Part shown: positions 34,259 through 46,811 of the stretch, piece by piece
Position numbering within the stretch: the first letter of the stretch is position 1
Layout: every line of letters starts with the position of its first letter
Origin: Pomacea canaliculata
Taxonomy: Eukaryota > Mollusca > Gastropoda > Architaenioglossa > Ampullariidae
Direction of reading: 5' to 3'
Length of the DNA stretch: 64,000 nt
NCBI RefSeq assembly: GCF_003073045.1
Contig: NC_037594.1
Span: forward strand, 20,900,927-20,964,926
Notes under the pieces: model-generated
Told to the model about the DNA's origin: nothing
Database searches by the model: none
What the model saw: the letters and a program-made list of their open reading frames with translations, nothing else
Position numbers and translations under genes: made by a program

Positions 34259-37200
34259 TTAAAACTGCAGTTTGTGCAGCGTTACCACAACAGAATTTCT
34301 GGGCCGAGATACAGGCAGATACTTGTGCGTAGTGTCCTGGCCATCCACTAACCGCCACTGGTACACAGCCATGAGTTCACTCACCACTACCTAATTGTTG
34401 AAGAGGAGTGTTTTCAAGTTTAAAAAGAAGTAGATCAGATTGTTCAGTTGTGCATACAATGTACAACTCTTTTGTGTATGCATGTCTTAAATGATCTTTG
34501 TGCAAATGGGGATGTTATTTCCCCTAAAAAAAATAGTTTTGATGTATTCAGGTATTATTAAAAAAAAAAGATAATACACTTTCAGCTTATAAGTTAGCAA
34601 GATCTGTTTATGATCAGTTCTAACAGCAAACTATAACTTGACAACCAAAAGAAGCAGCTGAACATCATAAAATTCTTTAAGTGAAATGTGTTACATACTT
34701 ACATCAACAATTTTCCAGACCAGTTCCTGTCCAAGACATTTTCTTGGACCCAAACCAAAATTAAACAGGTGTTTATCACAATCAGACCTGCAGAGATAAT
34801 ATATCTTCATAAAATATATCCTGAAAAGTAAGTAAAGTAAAATGGGAGTTAAATATTTTCTTCCACATTAACCCTACTCATTGTAACATTGTTTTTATGT
34901 ACAACAATAAAATAATGTAATTTCTAATAATTGCAAATGACAATAAGTAAATTTACAAAGCAAGAAATGCATTGAATAAGGTAATAACTAATTGTTTCAC
35001 TGGTTGTCAAGCATGTGATAACTCTTAGAATGATTAACTAGTGCATGTCAGAGGAATGTCACTCACTAACCTTTTACCTACTCTCAGCATCCAACAAATT
35101 AGAAACACTTGTTAACACATTACCAGCTAACTGTATTGAAAACGTGTCACTAAACATTCACCTGTAACAAGTATAACCTAAATAACTTTCACCTGCTTCC
35201 TAGCCACCGTTCAGGGTGAAAAGTCTCAGGCTCTTGGAAGACCTGTGCATCTCTGTGTGCTGTGTAGGTTATGTACACAACAGCATGGCCCTGAGGAATT
35301 CTGTATCCATCCACCACTACATCCTGTATGATAAGAAATGAGACATCACTGCCAAGACCACAAGGAGATAAAATAATGGATTCACACTAAAAATATTCCA
35401 ATTTTATAACATGGCTACTGTCATCTCAGCTGTGAGCGGACATTATGTTGTGCATAACTAATAAATATCTTTGTACAAATGTACATAAATATGGAATATA
35501 TAAGTATGTGCATTGAAAATTAAACTAAATTTACCTTTATTTATGCCCATCAAATCTATTAAAAAATGTGTTGACTGTAGTTTTCTTTTTTAAGAAATCA
35601 CCTTAAGTCATGGAATTCAAAACTGTTTCAAAGTCTGGTACCGAGTCACAGGTTGGAAATGGAGGCTTGAGCTTAGAGGTGATGTTTCCAGGACATGCAC
35701 ACTGAATCACTTGGTGTCAAGGGAGATAATATTGTTACTTAACATGGACTCTTCCAGAAATGATTACAAAGATCATGAAAACAAAGCTTGATTTTAAAAA
35801 ATAGACAAAAGTCTACATACACAGTTGATCCTAAAAAAAAAGCCTAATGAAAAGAATAAGCGTGGTAAGGCATACAATCTCAATAACAAACCTTTCTAGC
35901 TATTCGACGCCCTCCAAGAAAAGGTGGATAGAGGCGAAGGACTTCCTGGAAAATGCTTGATTTAAGATCTGGTTTCAATTTCAGTTCACTCTGAAGGGAT
36001 ATCTTTGTTTTCAAAGAAGAAAGGTAAGTATTTATGAGAATGTGCATGTGTCTTTGTGGAAAAATATGCAAGTTTTTCAAAAGTTCACACTTTCAATGGC
36101 AGGCCTTAAGAAGGACTCTTTTCATGCAGAGTACAGATGTAGCAGAAAACATTATACAAAAATTGTGCAAGTATGACAACTAATTCATTCATGCAGTGTC
36201 GAAAATAAATGCTGGCAAATATCCGTCTTCGTGTAAATTTTAAAATTTACTGGATGCATCAATACAATACCTAACAAAAATGTTTCACAACAGAGTAATT
36301 TTTAATTATTCTTACATGATCTGCAGTACCCAATTCAATGGCAAAAGAAGTGAGAAGAGAGGCTATGGCCTTAGGAACAAGAGCTGATGAAAAAAGTAGT
36401 AGGTGGTTATTGACAAACATATCCTGGTCATATGAGGCCACCTCTTCAAATTGTTTCAAGAATCTTTGCGAAGTACTGTGGCGCTGGGCCTGAATTATCT
36501 TCAGCAGTTTCTCCTGAAACATGTTTTGATTGGTTGGTGAGCATTAGCAGTGTCTGCATGTTAGTTAACATTCAAGTTAATCTGTACTCACTTATGACCA
36601 GTGTTGCAAAGTTCATTTGTACATGTTTTTGGTAGGAGTTTATTTTTAGCTGATAAATCAGGTGGTTGGTAGGTCTGCCAGACACATATGGAAAATGCAC
36701 TACATGTATCAGCATTTTTGTCTTAATTTATTTTGCCAGCATATCTTATACAGCTGAATATCAGTCTCTAAATGTACCCTGTCCCAGAAAACTGCTACAA
36801 TAAAGAAATCCATTTTTATTATTTCTTATGAAAATAATTTTTTTCTTGTTCTGGCATACCTGAATCCGTTATACCACCTGTAATGTTTACTCTCTTTAAA
36901 TCCCCTAAATATCTGTCAAAGAAAAATATAATACAGTATTATATAAAAGAAGATAAACAGCAATTATGTGATAATTACTGAATAAAGTAAGATTAGACTA
37001 TTCAGGAAAATGATGGTGTTGTTTAGCTGATGCCTCAGTAGTGTTGTTCACATATCTCATTTGCTCTGAGTTTGATCTTTCAGATCACAGATCTCTCAGG
37101 ATATGGAAATTCCAATAGCAGGTGTAGGGTATTAAAAACCTCAAATTTTGTTTAGTGGAAATTTACATACAGTTTTTGATATATATATATAGAGAGAGAG

Positions 37201-40200
37201 AGTTTATAAGGGGTTTCTGATACTTAGGTCTCAGTGTATTTCATATTACTTGGGTAGGAGATGGGCACCATTGTGTCTAAGGCCAGAGAAAGGACTACTA
37301 ATAATCAACACAGAAAAAAACTTCATGCCAGGTCCAGGCCAGGATCAACAAAGACCTAATGTAATTTGGTCCATAACCAGATTGACTTCATTCACCTGAC
37401 AAGGCATTTAAGGCAAGCATCAACAAAGCCAAAACAAGATTATAGCTACATAACTAGGAGCCGACAAGAAGTGACCATAACCTTGTCCCAATATCCACAC
37501 AGAAATTAAAGCTCAACGAACTCCTGAAATCCCTTTGACTTGGACAAGTTGCAAGATTCAAACATTGAACAGATTTGCAAGGCACAATTGGAGGTAAATT
37601 CAACACCCTGAACATGGTGGACTATGATGCAGACATCCTGGAAAAATCAAAGAGCTGTTGCTTTCTGCAGTCCAAGAAAGGCTAGGACAACAAAGGAAGA
37701 AGAAACAAATCAGTCATTGCACACAAAGACCAGTTACAGCAGACCAGTGACCAATATTAGTCATGAGATAAAGAATGAATGAAATTCATTACATAACTCA
37801 TTATGCAATTCAATTTCACGTTTACATCTTAGCTTACTTCATTTGTAATTGCCCATGTGTATGTCTGTCTGTTCACAAAGTATGAACAACTTTCCTTGCA
37901 TAATTACAACACACTGTTAATGTTTTTTCTTTTTCAAACTATATAAAATAATAGATGCAACCTTAGCCTCCAGTGCATGACTGTAGGTGGACGCATGGCT
38001 TGTTCCAGGCACTTTGAACTGAAGAGGTACAGAAGTGATTCCTGAAAAAGAAGGCAACATCATGATTTTTTATTACGTTACAAAAGTGCCCATAATATAT
38101 GCAGTACTACATCATGGATACAAATATCAAAGTTGTTTAAAAACAGCCATCATGAAGAAAGTCCCATCAACTGAACGGAGCTTAATAAACAGGAAAAATG
38201 TGATGAAAAATCAAAGGAAAACAACAGAAGGCAATCACCACCAAACTATTTTATCTGCAACTGATATGACCATCAAAATTGCTACGTGTATGATTAACAG
38301 ATTAAAAGTGTGATACAGACATTAATAAAAAGTTTCACGCTGATACTTATAGAAATTTAACTGCTTTTTTAGTATTTATTATTTTATCAAACCATGAAAT
38401 GGAGATTACCATGCCAATGTGCTGTAGTCAAAGTTAGCACATTTTTTGTTTCCTCCAAAGATTTATGAAAATCAAGTCCCAGGAACAATGAAAGACAGAT
38501 CTCTGTTACCACTTCCTTGAAGAATGTGTAAACGCACAAAGGAAGACTGCAAAAAGTTATTTACAATGTACAAGTCACAACAATACTCCATTCTAACACA
38601 TCATTCTAAATTTAAATAAAATCTTATCATTAGTACTGATTGATACATAAAAGAAATGGATTTTCTCACTGCATTCTTTAAGTCCTATCTGCACTTGTCA
38701 TAGCTGTTTGACTACCAAAAGAAAAAGTTAATAAGGATGCTTTATTATGTACAAAACATAAAAACTAAGATGGTTTGAACATGCTCAAAAATATGTTTAC
38801 ATCAGCAAGAATAAGCTAAGCAATAGCTAACAACATTACACTTGACTGCTTATACTTACTTAGCATCAAGTGTGGCCACATGATACTGCACAATTCTGAA
38901 ATTTAATAGAAACATGTTTCTGACATAATATAACCCCTTGATAAATATTTTTAAATATGTGAAGGTACTCACCAATATAATCTGCCTAATGCCATTTTGC
39001 AACCGATCATAGCACCTTTATACCATCAGTATATTAATGAATAATACATAAGGTAATAAATAAGCATAACAATCAACATGCTCTGTATTCTTTATCTCTT
39101 TTCTGATTTTTGTTTCAAAGTATTTATACAACATAAAAGATATGCATTTTAAGATTTTTAAACAATTTCTCATGACTTTTACCTGAGGACCTGAATGTTT
39201 CAAAACCTCTTAATGTCCTCTTCACAGGAATATACAGCATCTGGAGTAAAGAGATGTCCTAGAGCATCCCGGAACATGTGTGCTTTGTCATCTGAAATTT
39301 TAATCCAAAAGTATCATGAACTGCCGAATTAGCCTTCCAGCATTTGAATTTTCTGAAAATTGGTATATACTTTCACAAAGTTCAAAACAAAATGTCTGCT
39401 TGCTTTTTTCTTTTGTATCCATGCATAAACAACTGCTATATGTACTTCAACAAGCTACTGAAATAAACTTTGCTTCTAAACAAGTAAAAATGCAAATACA
39501 AAATCTGCATATACAGAGTAATATCATGCACAAAACAATACTATAATTAAAAAACACAATTAGTTTTCATTGTCTTGTTTTAAGCTCATTATACTGACCA
39601 TCTGCAAATAAAATATTATCACCAAAAATCTGCTCCATGAATGTCCTGTATCCATGTTCAAAATTACCACACCTATCTGAAACACAAAATAATTTATTTG
39701 AAATAAAACATGCCATCTCAGTTTTTTTTCAACTACTCATCATAATTTATATGATTATGCACTTGTATGATTATGTAGCTATTTGCATAATTACACACAA
39801 GCAGTTCAAATGTTGTGAGCCCAGTAACTGAAGCAATACTCTCCCTGCCCAGAGCCAGTCCCAACCCAGCTGAGTAGCTAAGCGCATAATATATCCCCAA
39901 GCCACACCCCAACCATCCAGTTCAGTTTCTCGATCCTTTTCTCCACTCAGGCACTGCCCACCCAGCAGTCTATGCTTATTCGAAGACGATTCTCATTTCG
40001 AAATTTAAGGTGCATATGAGGTCACAAGAACGAGGGTGTGAGAGTTAAAGGGTGGGGGAATCCACATCTCTTATTTATTCAGTATATTATTTGGACCATG
40101 GAAGGGAGGAATTTATTATCATATTATTTAATGTTGATTTATTACCCTTGACTCCCTTGTTCTGATCTGGTAACATCTCTGAACGATATTGTGTGACCAA

Positions 40201-40485
40201 CAATCACTATTCGTTTGCTGTTCTCGCTAACCCAACTTCAAAATGCGGAAGCTGAAGTCAGACGTCATACCTCACAGAAAACGCATATTCACTAACCTGT
40301 AGCACATCATGCACGCCCTTGTTAGAACAAACAAATACTGTTGGCTTGTTGAGGAATCGAGCTGCGAAAACACGTGAGTTATGGTGGTCTATACATTTGT
40401 AAAGAAATGCGACAGGGTTCTTGTAAAATGAATACGATTTGTCTCCCAACAGCGGCCACCCCACTGTACCTGGCACAGCTGCCAT
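34259..40485 (-). CDS. Compact, anchorless cytochrome P450
   Basis: Exons, 5' to 3': 40485-40297, 39676-39599, 39291-39207, 38895-38860, 38546-38410, 38041-37962, 36513-36316, 35990-35892, 35323-35193, 34787-34703, 34390-34259; about 416 residues. P450 hallmarks are the proline-rich N-terminus (PGTVGWPLLG), the K-helix ExxR (EVLRLYPP, E284/R287), the PERF-like FHPERW (338-341) and the heme loop FNFGLGPRKCLG with ligand C362. The protein starts directly at the proline-rich region, with no membrane anchor. The I-helix reads FSSALVPKAIASLL, without the A-G-x-D/E-T oxygen-activation motif. Such loss is known in P450s that isomerise or use peroxides (CYP74, CYP152, CYP8A), so a non-monooxygenase role is inferred. 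CYP family and substrate are not recognised. The exon 1-2 junction is one base short. The donor of exon 3 (GAG|GTTTTG) is weak. It is head to head with UNG. Confidence 0.9.
37200..37760 (+). mobile_element. LINE remnant in intron 6 of the P450 gene
   Basis: Plus-strand frames give SRQEVTITLSQYPH, DHNLVPISTQKLKL, FDLDKLQDSNIEQ-like and IGGKFNTLNMVDYDAD peptides. This is the end of the AP-type endonuclease and the linker before the reverse transcriptase of a common non-LTR retrotransposon family. The frame is broken many times. The fragment lies between P450 exons 37962 and 36513, opposite in orientation to the gene. Confidence 0.75.
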
Positions 40486-40972: not shown

Positions 40973-43900
40973 ATGAATGGGCAGCGCACAATGTTTGCAT
41001 TTTACACATCCACTGCAAAAAGAACAGCAAAATCTTTCAGCGAGGTTTGTTGAGCGTTAAAACAGTTGAAAACTAAAGAAAGATGCATGCTATGTGCGCA
41101 TGGCACATGTAGTAAATTTACTTTTAAAAGTTTACTAATACTTGATGCTTCACAAGTTGTGTAAGCAAGGAACAATGTTTTGACTAAATTATAAAGCAAC
41201 TCTTCATTATCGAATATAGCGTATGTTTGTGGGTTTTTTTGGGTTTTTTTCAGAACTCGTCTCCAAAGAAGCTAAAAACATCCCAAAATGATACCTGTAA
41301 CGAAGTTTGTTTACGAAGTAATGAACCAGAGTCGCCAAAAAAACATGAGCTTCAAGGAGAATTTCTTCAGCTCACTCCGGAGCAGAAAAGTCGCATTGAA
41401 GAAAAAAAAAGGCAGCTCTTGCCAAACTTCAGGATAAAGAAAATAAAAATGCACTTTCTAGCAGTACCTTACTGGTTAATGTGGGATCATCTTGGAGCAA
41501 TGCTCTTAGTGCAGAATTTTCAAAGCCGTATTTCCAAGAGGTGATTATTTAGTTCTTTTAAAATCATTAAAAAATGTCTAAAGAATATATTTATGACAGA
41601 ATGAATGGTCCTTTTAAGAAAATAATATGCATTCTATGTAAAGGTAAAATTCAAACAGTTATGTATTTTTAAAACTTTCCTTGTATGACAAGTATGTTTA
41701 ATCTTCCAGCTGACAAAATTTGTTGAAGCAGAGAGAAAGAAAGGCACAGTGTATCCTCCAGCAGATCAAGTCTTCACTTGGACAACCATGTGTAATATTT
41801 CAGAGGTCTGTTAAGTCAAAGAAATTGCACACGGGTCTATTTTTGTTAACATTATTGCATTAGTTGAATTGCATGACTGATCATGATTTTCTTGAGACTG
41901 TGGCTTTCAAGATACTTTAATGTAAGAGTATAAAAGTATATTGTGGCTATAGTGTTTGTGCCACATACATTAAACTATTGTCCATTCCCAACAAATTAAG
42001 GAATGTTTTAGTAGTCCTTGGTGCATGTTCTATTATGAAATCACTTTTCTCTCCCATCAGAAGCTGATTATTTTCACAATTTAGAGTTGTTTGTTTGCAG
42101 GTTAAAGTAGTAATGCTTGGTCAAGATCCCTATCATGGTCCTCGTCAAGCTCATGGTAGGTGTACCAGATCCTGAAGTTTATTGTGAGTGAAATAACCCA
42201 CTGTTCCCCTTTTATTGCTCAGTAAGTTCAGAATTTAAGGGCTTATCAATTTTTTTTTTCAGAGGGGTATGTGGGGATTCTACTTTTGAAAAGGCATTCC
42301 AATCTTAGGGCAGGGATAGGGGATCAGGGATATTGCATACATTGTTAAGTGCATGCTGTTTATCCAACTTAAGTACTTTAAAATTTTTCCAGGTCTTTGC
42401 TTCAGTGTGCAAAAAGGCATCACACCACCACCAAGGTAAATTTCTATTTTTTTTTTTTCTGTTGTACCTCAAAATGAAATTTATTAGTAGTATCTGATAA
42501 TGCAAAAAAAAAAAAGCTTAGTTATATAGACCATTTCCCTGCTTGGCTGTGAGTTTTATGCACATGAACAAAAGAGCAGCACTACAAAGAAAGACAGTAG
42601 CACAGTGTGCTGGCTACAATAACAAGAGAGAAGATAAAAACGGTGAGAAAGAATTGCAACCTATCAGCAATTGGAGATATTCACAAAAGAGGTTTGTCTT
42701 AGATGCATAACTAGGTTAATGTGTAAAACAAAAAAGACATTAGATTTTACTAAAATGATTCAAATACTTTTTTTTCATTACTATCTGTAATAATGTACAA
42801 CCTGGCAAGAATTTAGAAGCTTTAATTGTCGTCAAGTGAAATCTCAGAAATGTTACTTTATTTTGAAAACTTGAATGAGCACTATCATTTATACATATGC
42901 CTTGACAGATGAAGCATAATATATCTGAAAGGTTCTGTATCTGTCCTGTAAGCATAGTTATTGGATAAACCAGTCTCATCAACAACTGCTGCTCTTCCCT
43001 CCCCTTCCCCACAAAGTGGGACTATCTGAAAAAAAAATGTATCATGTTTAGATAATAGATATCTTGAGTTTTGGGGTTTTTTTTAAAAAAAATACGCTGA
43101 CGGTTACACTTGGACTATTTGCATGGGTGCCGTCCAGTCTGCACACCTGAAAAATAAGATATTCTTTTCATTTGGCAGTGTTTCTAACTACAGTGTAGGA
43201 CCATTAAGCCGCGGTGATTGGGGTCCAAATTCCTTAACCGTGGCTTAGGTGCTCCACGGCTTAAATAGTTTTTGATAACACATAAATTAAAACAAATAAT
43301 GAAAAAAAAATAGATGTTTTTTTCTTAACTTAAATAAAAGACTAATCTTTTATAAATACCTCTTTGAAGTTATGAGCCAGCATTTAAATATTTAATCTGC
43401 AATAGTGAATAGCATGTCAGTCACGGACATTCGAAATGCCAAAATGACAGCTGTCAACACTTGTCTCAAGTATTTGAGAGGCTCTGTCCAGGTCCGTATG
43501 ATCCATAGTGTCAGTAATTGGGATCCAAGCATTTAGCGTGGCGTAAGCGAATTTCGCGCCTTAATGGACCTACACTGTACTTTCATAAACCATTTACGTT
43601 GAGGGGCATTTATGAGAAATCATGCGATGTGTGAACATATGTATCTTAATCTTTACAGTTTAGAGAACATGTTCAAAGAGCTCCTGCAGGACATTGAAGG
43701 TTTCCAACATCCAGGGCATGGCACTTTGACAGGATGGGCCAAGCAGGGTATGAGGAAAGATATTTTGGGTTTTATAATTGAAAAACAAACCATCTGCTAA
43801 ACAACAAAAATGAAAAAAATATGGTTTTCTATCTAGTGTCATTATTTTTGGCGATGCTGAATGTGTTCCCTTGTAATTGCATTTTTCTTTTCTTAGCTTT

Positions 43901-44817
43901 TAGTGGAATATTTTTATGGAAGCATACCTTTTCCTCTTGTTTAGGTGTGCTACTTTTAAATGCTTGCCTTACAGTGCGTGCTCACCAAGCCAACTCCCAT
44001 CAAGGTAAGCATGCAGCATTTCAGATTTTGCAATAGTTAACAATGCACTGTCAATCCATTATTGCTTGCTATGGCCCAGTTTTGTGGGGGGGTGGGGGGA
44101 TGCATTTAAGTGATATTGATTTCGCAAATATTTCAAGCTAAATAAATGCATTAAAACAAATTTGTGAAAAAGTCTTTTCATAATTTATTCTGTATTTAGA
44201 GGATGTTTAATTATCAAGTTGTTATTTTGCTATGCTTTGTAGAAAAGTAATATTTACTGTAACAACTTAACAAAAATCATATGGAATTTAATTCATTTTC
44301 CTAAACTATAATTATAAACCTGCGGTTTAGGGAAAGGATGGGAACAGTTTACTGATGCAGTAATCAGTTGGCTCAACAAGAATTCCTCAGGCATTGTCTT
44401 CATGCTCTGGGGTTCTTATGCTCAGAAAAAAGGATCCTGTATCGACAAGGTATTTATAAAAGATATAATTCTGACTTTTTACTATAAAGCGGTTTGAAAA
44501 TGTTTTAATCTGTATCTTATATTTACATGCCTATAAGAAAAGAGTATCAGTGTTTGTCTCTTTTAACTGAATGAAGTCCCATACTCTTTTCTATTTCTCT
44601 GTTGTTTTATTTTTATTGATTTGTACCTCAGCAAGCTTATAAAGCTATTGATCCTTTTCTTCTCCAGAAGAAACATCATGTTTTGACAGCTGTCCACCCA
44701 TCACCCTTATCAGCACACAGAGGATTTTTTGGCTGCAAGCATTTCTCTCAGTGCAACAAACTCCTGCAAAAAAGTGGCAAAACACCAATTGACTGGAACA
44801 AGTTACCCGTAGAGTAA
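40973..44817 (+). CDS. UNG: Uracil-DNA glycosylase (family 1, nuclear UNG2-type)
   Basis: Exons: 40973-41044, 41254-41540, 41710-41805, 42101-42155, 42393-42435, 43659-43747, 43945-44004, 44331-44449, 44668-44817; about 323 residues (human 313). It removes uracil from DNA, the first step of base-excision repair. Visible motifs are the water-activating loop GQDPYHG, the uracil-pocket [13 protein letters not shown] and the DNA-binding [13 protein letters not shown]. Exon 1 carries a PCNA-interaction box (QRTMFAFY) and basic residues, indicating a nuclear form. That choice of start is supported by an in-phase GT donor after codon 24 and a poly-T acceptor at 41251-41253. All exon phases agree except within exon 2: the frame shifts by one base at a nine-A run (41402-41410), after which the conserved sequence ([11 protein letters not shown]) resumes. 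AATAAA overlaps the region just after the stop (44820). Head to head with the P450. Confidence 0.97.
43191..43577. mobile_element. Tc1/mariner-type MITE in UNG intron 5
   Basis: Terminal inverted repeats CAGTGTAGGACCATTAAG and, inverted, CAGTGTAGGTCCATTAAG, with TA on both flanks. It is 387 bases, non-coding, and wholly within the intron between 42435 and 43659. It is a different family from the TA-flanked MITE at 29946. Confidence 0.88.
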
Positions 44818-46811
44818 TGCAATAAATGTGTGTGCATGTGTTTAATTAGAGAAAAAAGTATGGAAGTATTTTAATACAGATCAGGGTTTTCTGCTTCAAA
44901 CAAAAGATCTTTGTGTTTTGAAGGCTTTTAATTTCTGTTCCTTTTATTCTGCCCATTTAGCAAAAGACTTCCAGAATTTTCATGTTCTGTTTTTAATATT
45001 TTATTGCTACTGTTTCTGATTTATTTTATCAACAGTTTAAGTGCGACTTTTTTCAGTATTCTAGTCCTTATATGCTAAATGATTAAAAGTTTGTTTTTAT
45101 GTTTAATGTAGATGTTTTTAAAGAGAATAAATGAGGTTTTTCCCACCCCTCATATGGAAGGGACATAGCAGCAACAATGGAGGCTTGTGTATAGCTTTGA
45201 TGCGAGTGAATGAAAAGATTAGATAGTGAACTGTCTGTCTGTCTCTCTCACACACACACACATGGGATCACTTTCGAGTCTCTTATCATTTTGATGTTAT
45301 CTTCTATTGGCACACTGGTAAACAACGCCGCCACATCAAAGGACACAAGCGTTCGTCCGAGTCCAGATGTACTGTGACAGTTTGATGACAAGATCAGCGC
45401 TATTCATAACATGGAGCTCCGTCCTCATGAAAGATAAAAGAATGCTAGACAGGAACCCTCTTATCTCTCAAGTGATGGACTCTCTGGACGCAACAATGGA
45501 TGGAGTGACACAATATTTCTCTTCCCACAGACCTCTGGTTTAATGGTTACCTTTCTTTCTGCTGGAGAAATAGAAATGTTGAAATTGATGTTAAGGTTAG
45601 GGTTTTGTTTTATTGCAAATCCTAGCTAATTCATCTGCTTTTCCTTTACTTTTATTGCTTTATGAAAATAAATCCACAAAAAATTTCGCAATTTCCTCTA
45701 TGGATCCTACTTATGAGTTAATATTTCCTACAATAGTTTGATTTTGTAGTGCCTAGGATTATCTGGAGTGCTGTGTGAAAAACGGACAGTCCAGAAATGT
45801 ACTGTTTGGGAGTCTGGCTGACATCGTGGATTATTGGGAAAGAAACATCCAGTCCTGCTATGTGAGTGTTGGGGTCATGTGATCCGACTGTGTAGCCCAG
45901 GAGATCGTCTTTGTGTATTGCGTAAGTCTATGTCTATTAGCATTATAAATTAACCAAATTTTGATATTTTTGAAGGAGAAAAGCATCTCAGATTATGGCA
46001 TACTGTTCTGAATAAATTAACTTTGTGCTAATACTTATGAACTCTAGGTTGGTTGTTAAGCAGGAAATATATTTAGAAGTGTATCTGAAAGCAGTGTTTG
46101 GTGTAACAAAAGGGATGATGGCATAATTTTTTTCTGAAAAGAGTTTTGTTTAAAACATGTAAGCAAGACATGCATTGTCTGTTATAATAAGTTTATTGAA
46201 TCAATACATTTAACTTTTTAAAAGCAGAAATTTAAAACGAATTCAGGAAATCATGCTGTTAACTCTCAATTTGCGATGAGGATATGAAAATACTTCCACG
46301 TTTGTTGAAGACAAAAATTGTAAGCCTCGTGTGCAAAATGGAGGTTGGAAAATTACGCCACAGACAGATCACGATCATCAGATGACATGAGCAACTTGTT
46401 CGCTTGACCTTTCAGTGTGATATGCAAATAAATCTGTATCCACGACATTCGTCAAAAGTTGAATCCTGTTTAACTGCAGGTTGATACACCATTGTTTTTT
46501 CTATTGAGGCATATTTTAGTTACTTGCAAGAGTACAATTTTAATCATCTTTTAACAAGGATCGTCTGAACTAAACTTTTGTAATAAATCTGTGAAGCAGT
46601 GTTTGAAAACTAGCAAACTCCGGACTAAAGCAGTAAATTAGGAAGAAGATAAGTCAAACCGGTGATTACATTAATTTTTAAAAAAACATTTCTTTCCACT
46701 CAGGACCTGTAACAATATGTCTAAGGATTTGTGAGCCCTTTCGACTCTGCTTTCTTAAGATTTTCACTGGGCTCATTAGAGATTCGACATTCACTTTTTG
46801 GCACCCTGTCT
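44818..46811. other. Intergenic region between convergent UNG and the unknown 1.6-kresidue gene
   Basis: It holds the UNG 3' end (AATAAA at 44821 and 45125), a short CT/CA repeat, a Penelope-like fragment at 45255-45445, and the probable 3'UTR of the minus-strand gene with AATAAA (minus) at 46192-46197. The two genes converge here. No further gene was found. Confidence 0.5.
45255..45445 (-). mobile_element. Penelope-like retroelement fragment
   Basis: The minus strand gives LVSFDVAALFTSVPI, the signature reverse-transcriptase motif of Penelope-like elements, preceded by an NSADLVIKLSQY-like segment. Only about 60 codons remain. The fragment is broken and old, and no end repeats were seen. 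Confidence 0.75.

Follow-up and report, generated by a model that had tools for sequence, protein, structure and literature searches.

A divergent cytochrome P450 gene of Pomacea canaliculata that has lost the I-helix acid-threonine pair and probably lacks a membrane anchor

How might a cytochrome P450 (P450) work when the acid and the threonine of its I-helix are both gone and its protein appears to begin directly at the proline-rich hinge? We examined this question for a P450 gene on the minus strand of a 64,000-nucleotide stretch of DNA from the snail Pomacea canaliculata (NCBI RefSeq GCF_003073045.1, contig NC_037594.1, positions 20,900,927 to 20,964,926; the whole stretch is called the window, and gene coordinates refer to it), which extends from an ATG at 40485 to a TAA ending at 34259. 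The I-helix of the predicted protein reads SSALVPKAI and does not match the canonical [AG]-G-x-[DE]-T-[TS], while the heme loop, EVLR and FHPERW are intact, a pattern that, judged from the sequence, is unlike random decay; the protein may work in an unusual way. We tentatively favour the reading that it is a soluble heme-thiolate enzyme which would not activate O2 with electrons from a membrane reductase. PMC6129957 treats the 157 annotated P450s of P. canaliculata, an invasive pest, mainly as detoxification and stress genes; the present P450 should not be classed among these without evidence. No publication recognisably on this gene was found in a search outside of which most subscription journals lay; it may well be one of the entries in the P450 tree of PMC6129957.

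Gene model, I-helix and N-terminus

The spliced coding sequence (12 exons, 11 introns, 1287 nt, 428 residues; Table 1) is free of stops, and none of 5000 base-shuffled versions of it retained an open frame. All introns of the model have GT and AG ends, and the gene is intact and single-copy, with no close paralogue. An intact reading frame is confirmed for the predicted model, in large agreement with the first-pass annotation, which had placed the gene at 34259-40485 on the minus strand (identical to our independently built model) and had called it a real P450 from EVLR, FHPERW and FGLGPRKCLG, all three of which are canonical. The heme loop (residues 367-376) satisfies the superfamily pattern F-x-x-G-x-R-x-C-x-G; the K-helix EVLR (residues 296-299) and the meander FHPERW supply ExxR and PER in canonical form. 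Pfam p450 (PF00067) reached 105.5 bits (cut-off 22.8), with the best stretch limited to residues 293-410; similarity of the N-terminal half to CYP120-type proteins was uneven, the global-alignment Z ranging from 2.5 (CYP120A1 itself) to 22 (L044). The protein has the conserved heme-thiolate-binding residues, and normal heme binding is predicted. The length first given as about 416 residues was revised to 428, and SALVPK, first put at about residues 245-250, lies at 257-262 (the earlier numbers were about 12 lower), the motif itself being as first read.

The entire I-helix (HLLLFSSALVPKAIASLLTSF), including both flanks, lies within one uninterrupted exon (36513-36316), which leaves no place inside it for a missed exon. 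In a P450 profile from which the snail protein had been left out, Lys262 took the acid column and Ala263 the threonine column, with Val-Pro inserted just before them; this assignment was reproduced by a separate MAFFT alignment, and a four-sequence alignment gave the same two residues with the gap placed differently. The gap-free registers, read by eye, put Val/Pro, Pro/Lys or Lys/Ala in the two columns, with no acid or hydroxyl in any of them. The profile and MAFFT alignments thus uphold the earlier reading of SALVPK without A-G-x-D/E-T-T. The motif was absent from both other frames of the I-helix exon, and a loose motif scan over every minus-strand frame between 34 and 46 kb turned up three matches, all of which failed when a stop-free hydrophobic helix was required; no exon restoring A-G-x-D/E-T, such as the first-pass annotation had envisaged, was found across these 34-46 kb, and a missed exon or compensating frameshift concealing the motif was rejected on these grounds. 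SALVPK, counted from its first residue, lies 39 residues before EVLR (43 with the ISLQ that exon 9 would gain from its alternative upstream acceptor), in line with the earlier estimate of about 40. The isolated fold of the I-helix exon (66 aa) had a mean predicted local distance difference test score of 52, too low to use, and the helix break that it showed over SSALVP is not evidence.

The N-terminus of the protein starts at the hinge, MAAVPGTVGWPLLGD, and ten codons separate the ATG from an upstream in-frame stop. No hydrophobic anchor precedes the Pro-rich hinge in exon 1, and none of the ATGs on the minus strand from 40.5-46.5 kb is followed within 45 residues by a strongly hydrophobic stretch (a plus-strand control gave three). 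The membrane anchor is likely absent: the hinge start claimed at first holds, and the anchorless state claimed with it is supported, short of proof, by the upstream stop and the 6-kb scan. The consensus donor of exon 1, CAG/GTTAGT, is in phase 0, and phase 1 is required by exon 2; the model adopts the poorer TTA/GTGAAT, 4 nt downstream, leaving residues 64-65 uncertain. Nineteen candidate small exons would also repair the exon 1-2 phase, none of which was judged convincing. The exon 3 donor (GTTTTG) is also debatable, as are the acceptors of exons 4, 5 and 9.

Occurrence of the motif loss and family placement

We asked how often the pair is lost elsewhere in the snail genome. A profile search gave 105 P450 matches in the 440,159,624-base assembly (24 contigs), from which 50 further places covering the I-helix were taken, 49 of them readable at the motif (L165 was unreadable); six more came from the single-exon cluster L006-L011, a seventh (L012) being dropped with no usable reading frame. 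The 55 readable loci are places, not proven genes. Acid and Thr/Ser were retained in 37 of the 55, the acid alone was lost in 15, the hydroxyl alone in 2, and both residues in one (L162). Both are also lost from the CYP26-like locus L039, which lies outside the 55, where ASFANT replaces AGHETL with no gap. Loss of both acid and Thr is rare in this genome but not unique, and the motif loss as a unique feature was rejected because of L162 and L039. The insertion with Lys was found in no other aligned row.

The I-helix is described as the least conserved P450 motif in one survey, which in the annelid Capitella notes that CYP372B1 has an I-helix insertion and CYP3067A1 has gaps (PMC4229089); CYP20 is described as having a degenerate I-helix across metazoans (PMC8110760). 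Several of the snail loci deserve separate mention. L162 (G000 C4, 5889563-5890213) is a P450 exon reading NGFQAV at the I-helix motif, with acid and hydroxyl both gone. The L006-L011 cluster (G000 C1, 3154239-3191284) has Ser, Gly, Thr or Asn in place of the acid, with the Thr retained. In a further P450 cluster, L164, L166, L167 and L169-L172 (G000 C2, 25.73-25.81 Mb), all seven places read have [GA]Y[AVI]TS for G-x-E-T, the acid lost and the Thr retained.

The best 80 of 207 bacterial relatives lie nearly all in records titled as cyanobacteria. Of these 80, 78 were readable (L063 was unaligned and L098 had no reading frame), and these differ from the snail protein in that 70 keep acid and Thr/Ser; 2 have the hydroxyl only and 6 have neither. 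This list is biased, because its search patterns were derived by aligning cyanobacterial proteins and because it stops at the best 80; the plasmid search was built differently and still returned Nostoc first. The six without either residue (L055, L072, L073, L079, L097 and L102) are CYP120-like, with LG[RKH][KN]E[LI] where their sisters have AGHETL, and Lys occupies the acid column in five of them; their records are titled Trichodesmium, Okeania, Xenococcaceae and Prochloraceae. Five of the six were included in our trees, and they formed one clade (100/100 in three trees).

The snail P450 grouped with CYP26, CYP120 and CYP90 (96/87; 100/99 without two long rows), its weak sister being the snail L039 (88/67; 94/84 without the two long rows), and its branch was very long (2.17-2.47 changes per column). 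Placement in the CYP26/CYP120/CYP85 assemblage was left open once the CYP26-like row was removed from the tree. As a rough placement from sequence, we regard the protein as a very divergent animal member of that assemblage; the alignment and tree proposed in the first-pass annotation gave this grouping, CYP74 lying outside the comparison. Among other animal P450s, CYP3071A1 and CYP3072A1 of Capitella belong to no clan. CYP family membership follows a 40% identity rule, and at 29% identity to L039 over residues 314-419 the protein falls outside the CYP26 family proper, as compared with this snail CYP26-like gene only. L039 (~5.305-5.310 Mb on G000 C5, the contig that also carries the window), which shares the loss of acid and Thr, differs in having a longer J-K region, no I-helix insertion, and a hydrophobic stretch (MESSLLAVIACTLLTYVWATLIW) before the hinge in the same exon and reading frame; because it keeps this N-terminus, absence of the anchor is not general to the group. 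The loss of the pair from L039 (DNIIELLIASFANTPSALCSAL) is itself unexpected for a gene of retinoic-acid hydroxylase type.

CYP120A1 of cyanobacteria (PDB 2ve3) was the best PDB match by sequence (2.2e-17), with about 17 more residues between the I-helix motif and ExxR than the snail P450 (13 if ISLQ is included), and the first plasmid matches were Nostoc CYP120-like proteins (~25% identity; 1e-24 and 5e-26). The N-terminal hinge of these relatives is similar, and in the Nostoc protein little sequence precedes it. When only the central portion (about residues 135-280) was used as query, the plasmid search found nothing. Horizontal gain from cyanobacteria was not supported, given the ~25% identity, the 11 introns and the adjoining snail uracil-DNA glycosylase (UDG) gene, and is further disfavoured by the tree, which favours a sister relation to the snail CYP26-like gene. 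No viral relatives were found in viral contigs (searched with six 8-residue patterns that reach close relatives only) or in PHROGs. The best NCBIfam match, ApyO (NF050147, a P450 of ribosomally synthesized and post-translationally modified peptide pathways), was rejected at 90.5 bits versus 525, and is generic because five of six other P450s scanned, CYP120A1 included, score higher, only CYP152A1 being lower. CYP20, an animal orphan P450, shares a degenerate I-helix and is reported to have a heme-loop deletion (PMC8110760); the loop of the snail P450 is complete, which sets it apart from CYP20.

Proposed function and its rivals

Two features appear to be missing from the snail P450, the relay that supplies protons for cleaving O2 and a way of docking to the endoplasmic reticulum reductase. 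The enzyme would then be cytosolic and reductase-independent, and its substrate would supply activated oxygen, whether as a lipid hydroperoxide or endoperoxide that is rearranged or through a peroxide shunt; we propose this because it is the simplest reading that accounts for loss of both relay and anchor. The region around Val-Pro-Lys (260-262) would reshape the distal pocket, in which Lys262 may have a role. There are precedents by analogy. CYP74-clan enzymes, of which animal members exist, are described as using hydroperoxides with no need of O2 or a redox partner, and in CYP74, CYP8A1 and CYP5A1 activated oxygen comes with the substrate (PMC10813956); substrates carrying their own oxygen have been speculated on by others for CYP20 (PMC8669017). 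The snail P450 would share the proposed peroxide substrates with the CYP74 clan, CYP8A1 and CYP5A1, a likeness drawn by description and not by sequence, and it contrasts with them in having a heme loop of the ordinary 10-residue form. Peroxide or rearrangement chemistry is in this sense plausible for the snail P450. The fullest version of the proposal, a soluble cytosolic clan-26-type P450 that needs no redox partner and acts on hydroperoxide or endoperoxide lipids, and in which Lys262 in the acid position would be newly used for catalysis or for binding a carboxylate, we consider quite improbable as a whole.

Several observations weigh against a soluble, reductase-independent enzyme. The exon 1-2 junction is irregular, and therefore the 5' end of the gene may be incomplete. 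L039 lost the same pair yet kept a hydrophobic N-terminus; having the first loss without the second, it indicates that motif loss and anchor loss are not tied together. The snail P450 is not a member of the CYP152 peroxygenases, and CYP107A1 is described as a monooxygenase that works without the Thr (PMC10741444).

This last precedent leads to a possible, if doubtful, alternative, that the snail protein is an ordinary O2-dependent monooxygenase to which protons are delivered by a substrate hydroxyl or ordered water, Lys262 or helix serines participating. CYP107A1 has Ala for the Thr and uses the substrate 5-OH (PMC10741444), and variation in the motif is evidently tolerated, because the acid alone is lost at 15 of the 55 readable snail loci; in the present gene, however, both residues are gone, the helix carries an insertion, and no anchor was found for docking with the usual reductase. 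It is unlikely that the gene encodes a heme-binding pseudoenzyme or is in early decay: the very long branch, the lack of a close paralogue, the motif loss and the one irregular splice junction are what would be expected of this, but the gene keeps twelve open exons, a polyadenylation-type signal, and the heme loop, ExxR and PERW in canonical form. We also think it unlikely that this is a microsomal P450 with an overlooked anchor exon, the I-helix change alone being real; exon 1 starts exactly at the hinge and joins exon 2 poorly, as such an exon would predict, whereas the in-frame stop that precedes the ATG by ten codons, the 6 kb of upstream sequence in which no ATG exon proved strongly hydrophobic, and the divergently oriented UDG gene, with Pfam-tested pieces from ~1.2 kb upstream, argue otherwise.

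The Arg-Pro of the CYP152 I-helix has a catalytic role. That the snail gene is a CYP152 peroxygenase acquired from bacteria is very improbable: it resembles CYP152 (P450BS-beta, PDB 1izo) in having an I-helix Pro, a similarly short spacing to ExxR (counted by eye), no acid-Thr pair and probably no anchor, and the approximately unbiased tree test did not exclude a joint clade with CYP152A1 (p-AU 0.19), but we rejected the kinship on model score (NCBIfam NF053744, 38.4 bits versus a 600 cut-off; CYP152A1 itself 696.9) and on similarity, which is below family level, with Val-Pro-Lys in place of Arg-Pro, so that the Arg is missing, and a different heme loop.

If the protein is indeed soluble and reductase-independent, peroxide-type chemistry would have arisen within the retinoic-acid-hydroxylase lineage in a mollusc, and, if its substrates are hydroperoxides or endoperoxides, this would be a third animal origin of such chemistry, besides the CYP74 clan and CYP5/CYP8. 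The gene offers a defined case for asking what substitutes for the acid-threonine relay; should it turn out to be a pseudoenzyme or an unusual monooxygenase, it would remain useful as a natural test of the extent of I-helix loss that a P450 tolerates.

Feature coordinates and the neighbouring gene

Table 1. Exons of the P450 gene model and its polyadenylation-type signal, in window coordinates.
Feature	Coordinates	Strand	Content and remarks
Exon 1	40293..40485	-	start codon and hinge MAAVPGTVGWPLLGD...VLQ; uncertain at its 3' end (the model takes 40293; 40297 is a better donor in the wrong phase)
Exon 2	39599..39676	-	RCGNFEHGYRTFMEQIFGDNILFAD
Exon 3	39207..39291	-	C-helix region, DKAHMFRDALGHLFTP; weak donor
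Exon 4	38973..39015	-	CYDRLQNGIRQIIL; weak acceptor
Exon 5	38860..38885	-	micro-exon YHVATLDA; acceptor debatable
Exon 6	38410..38546	-	LPLCVYTFFKEVVTEICLSLFLGLDF...AHWH
Exon 7	37962..38041	-	ITSVPLQFKVPGTSHASTYSHALEAK
Exon 8	36316..36513	-	entire I-helix, HLLLFSSALVPKAIASLLTSFAIEL; Lys262/Ala263 in acid/Thr columns, VP insertion before them
Exon 9	35892..35990	-	K-helix EVLR, FQEVLRLYPPFLGGRRIARK; alternative upstream acceptor would add ISLQ
Exon 10	35193..35323	-	meander FHPERW
Exon 11	34703..34787	-	heme loop FGLGPRKCLG including Cys ligand
Exon 12	34259..34390	-	C-terminus and TAA stop codon
Polyadenylation-type signal AATAAA	34230..34235	-	23 nt past stop codon

The UDG gene lies on the plus strand at window positions ~41300-45000, head to head with the P450 gene and ~1 kb away. 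Its joined exon pieces match Pfam UDG (2.8e-9; 37.6 bits versus 24.3); the first such piece is ~1.2 kb from the P450 start, and a likely N-terminal piece, identified by eye only, is at ~0.8 kb. Since the two genes stand head to head about 1 kb apart, they may share a promoter region.
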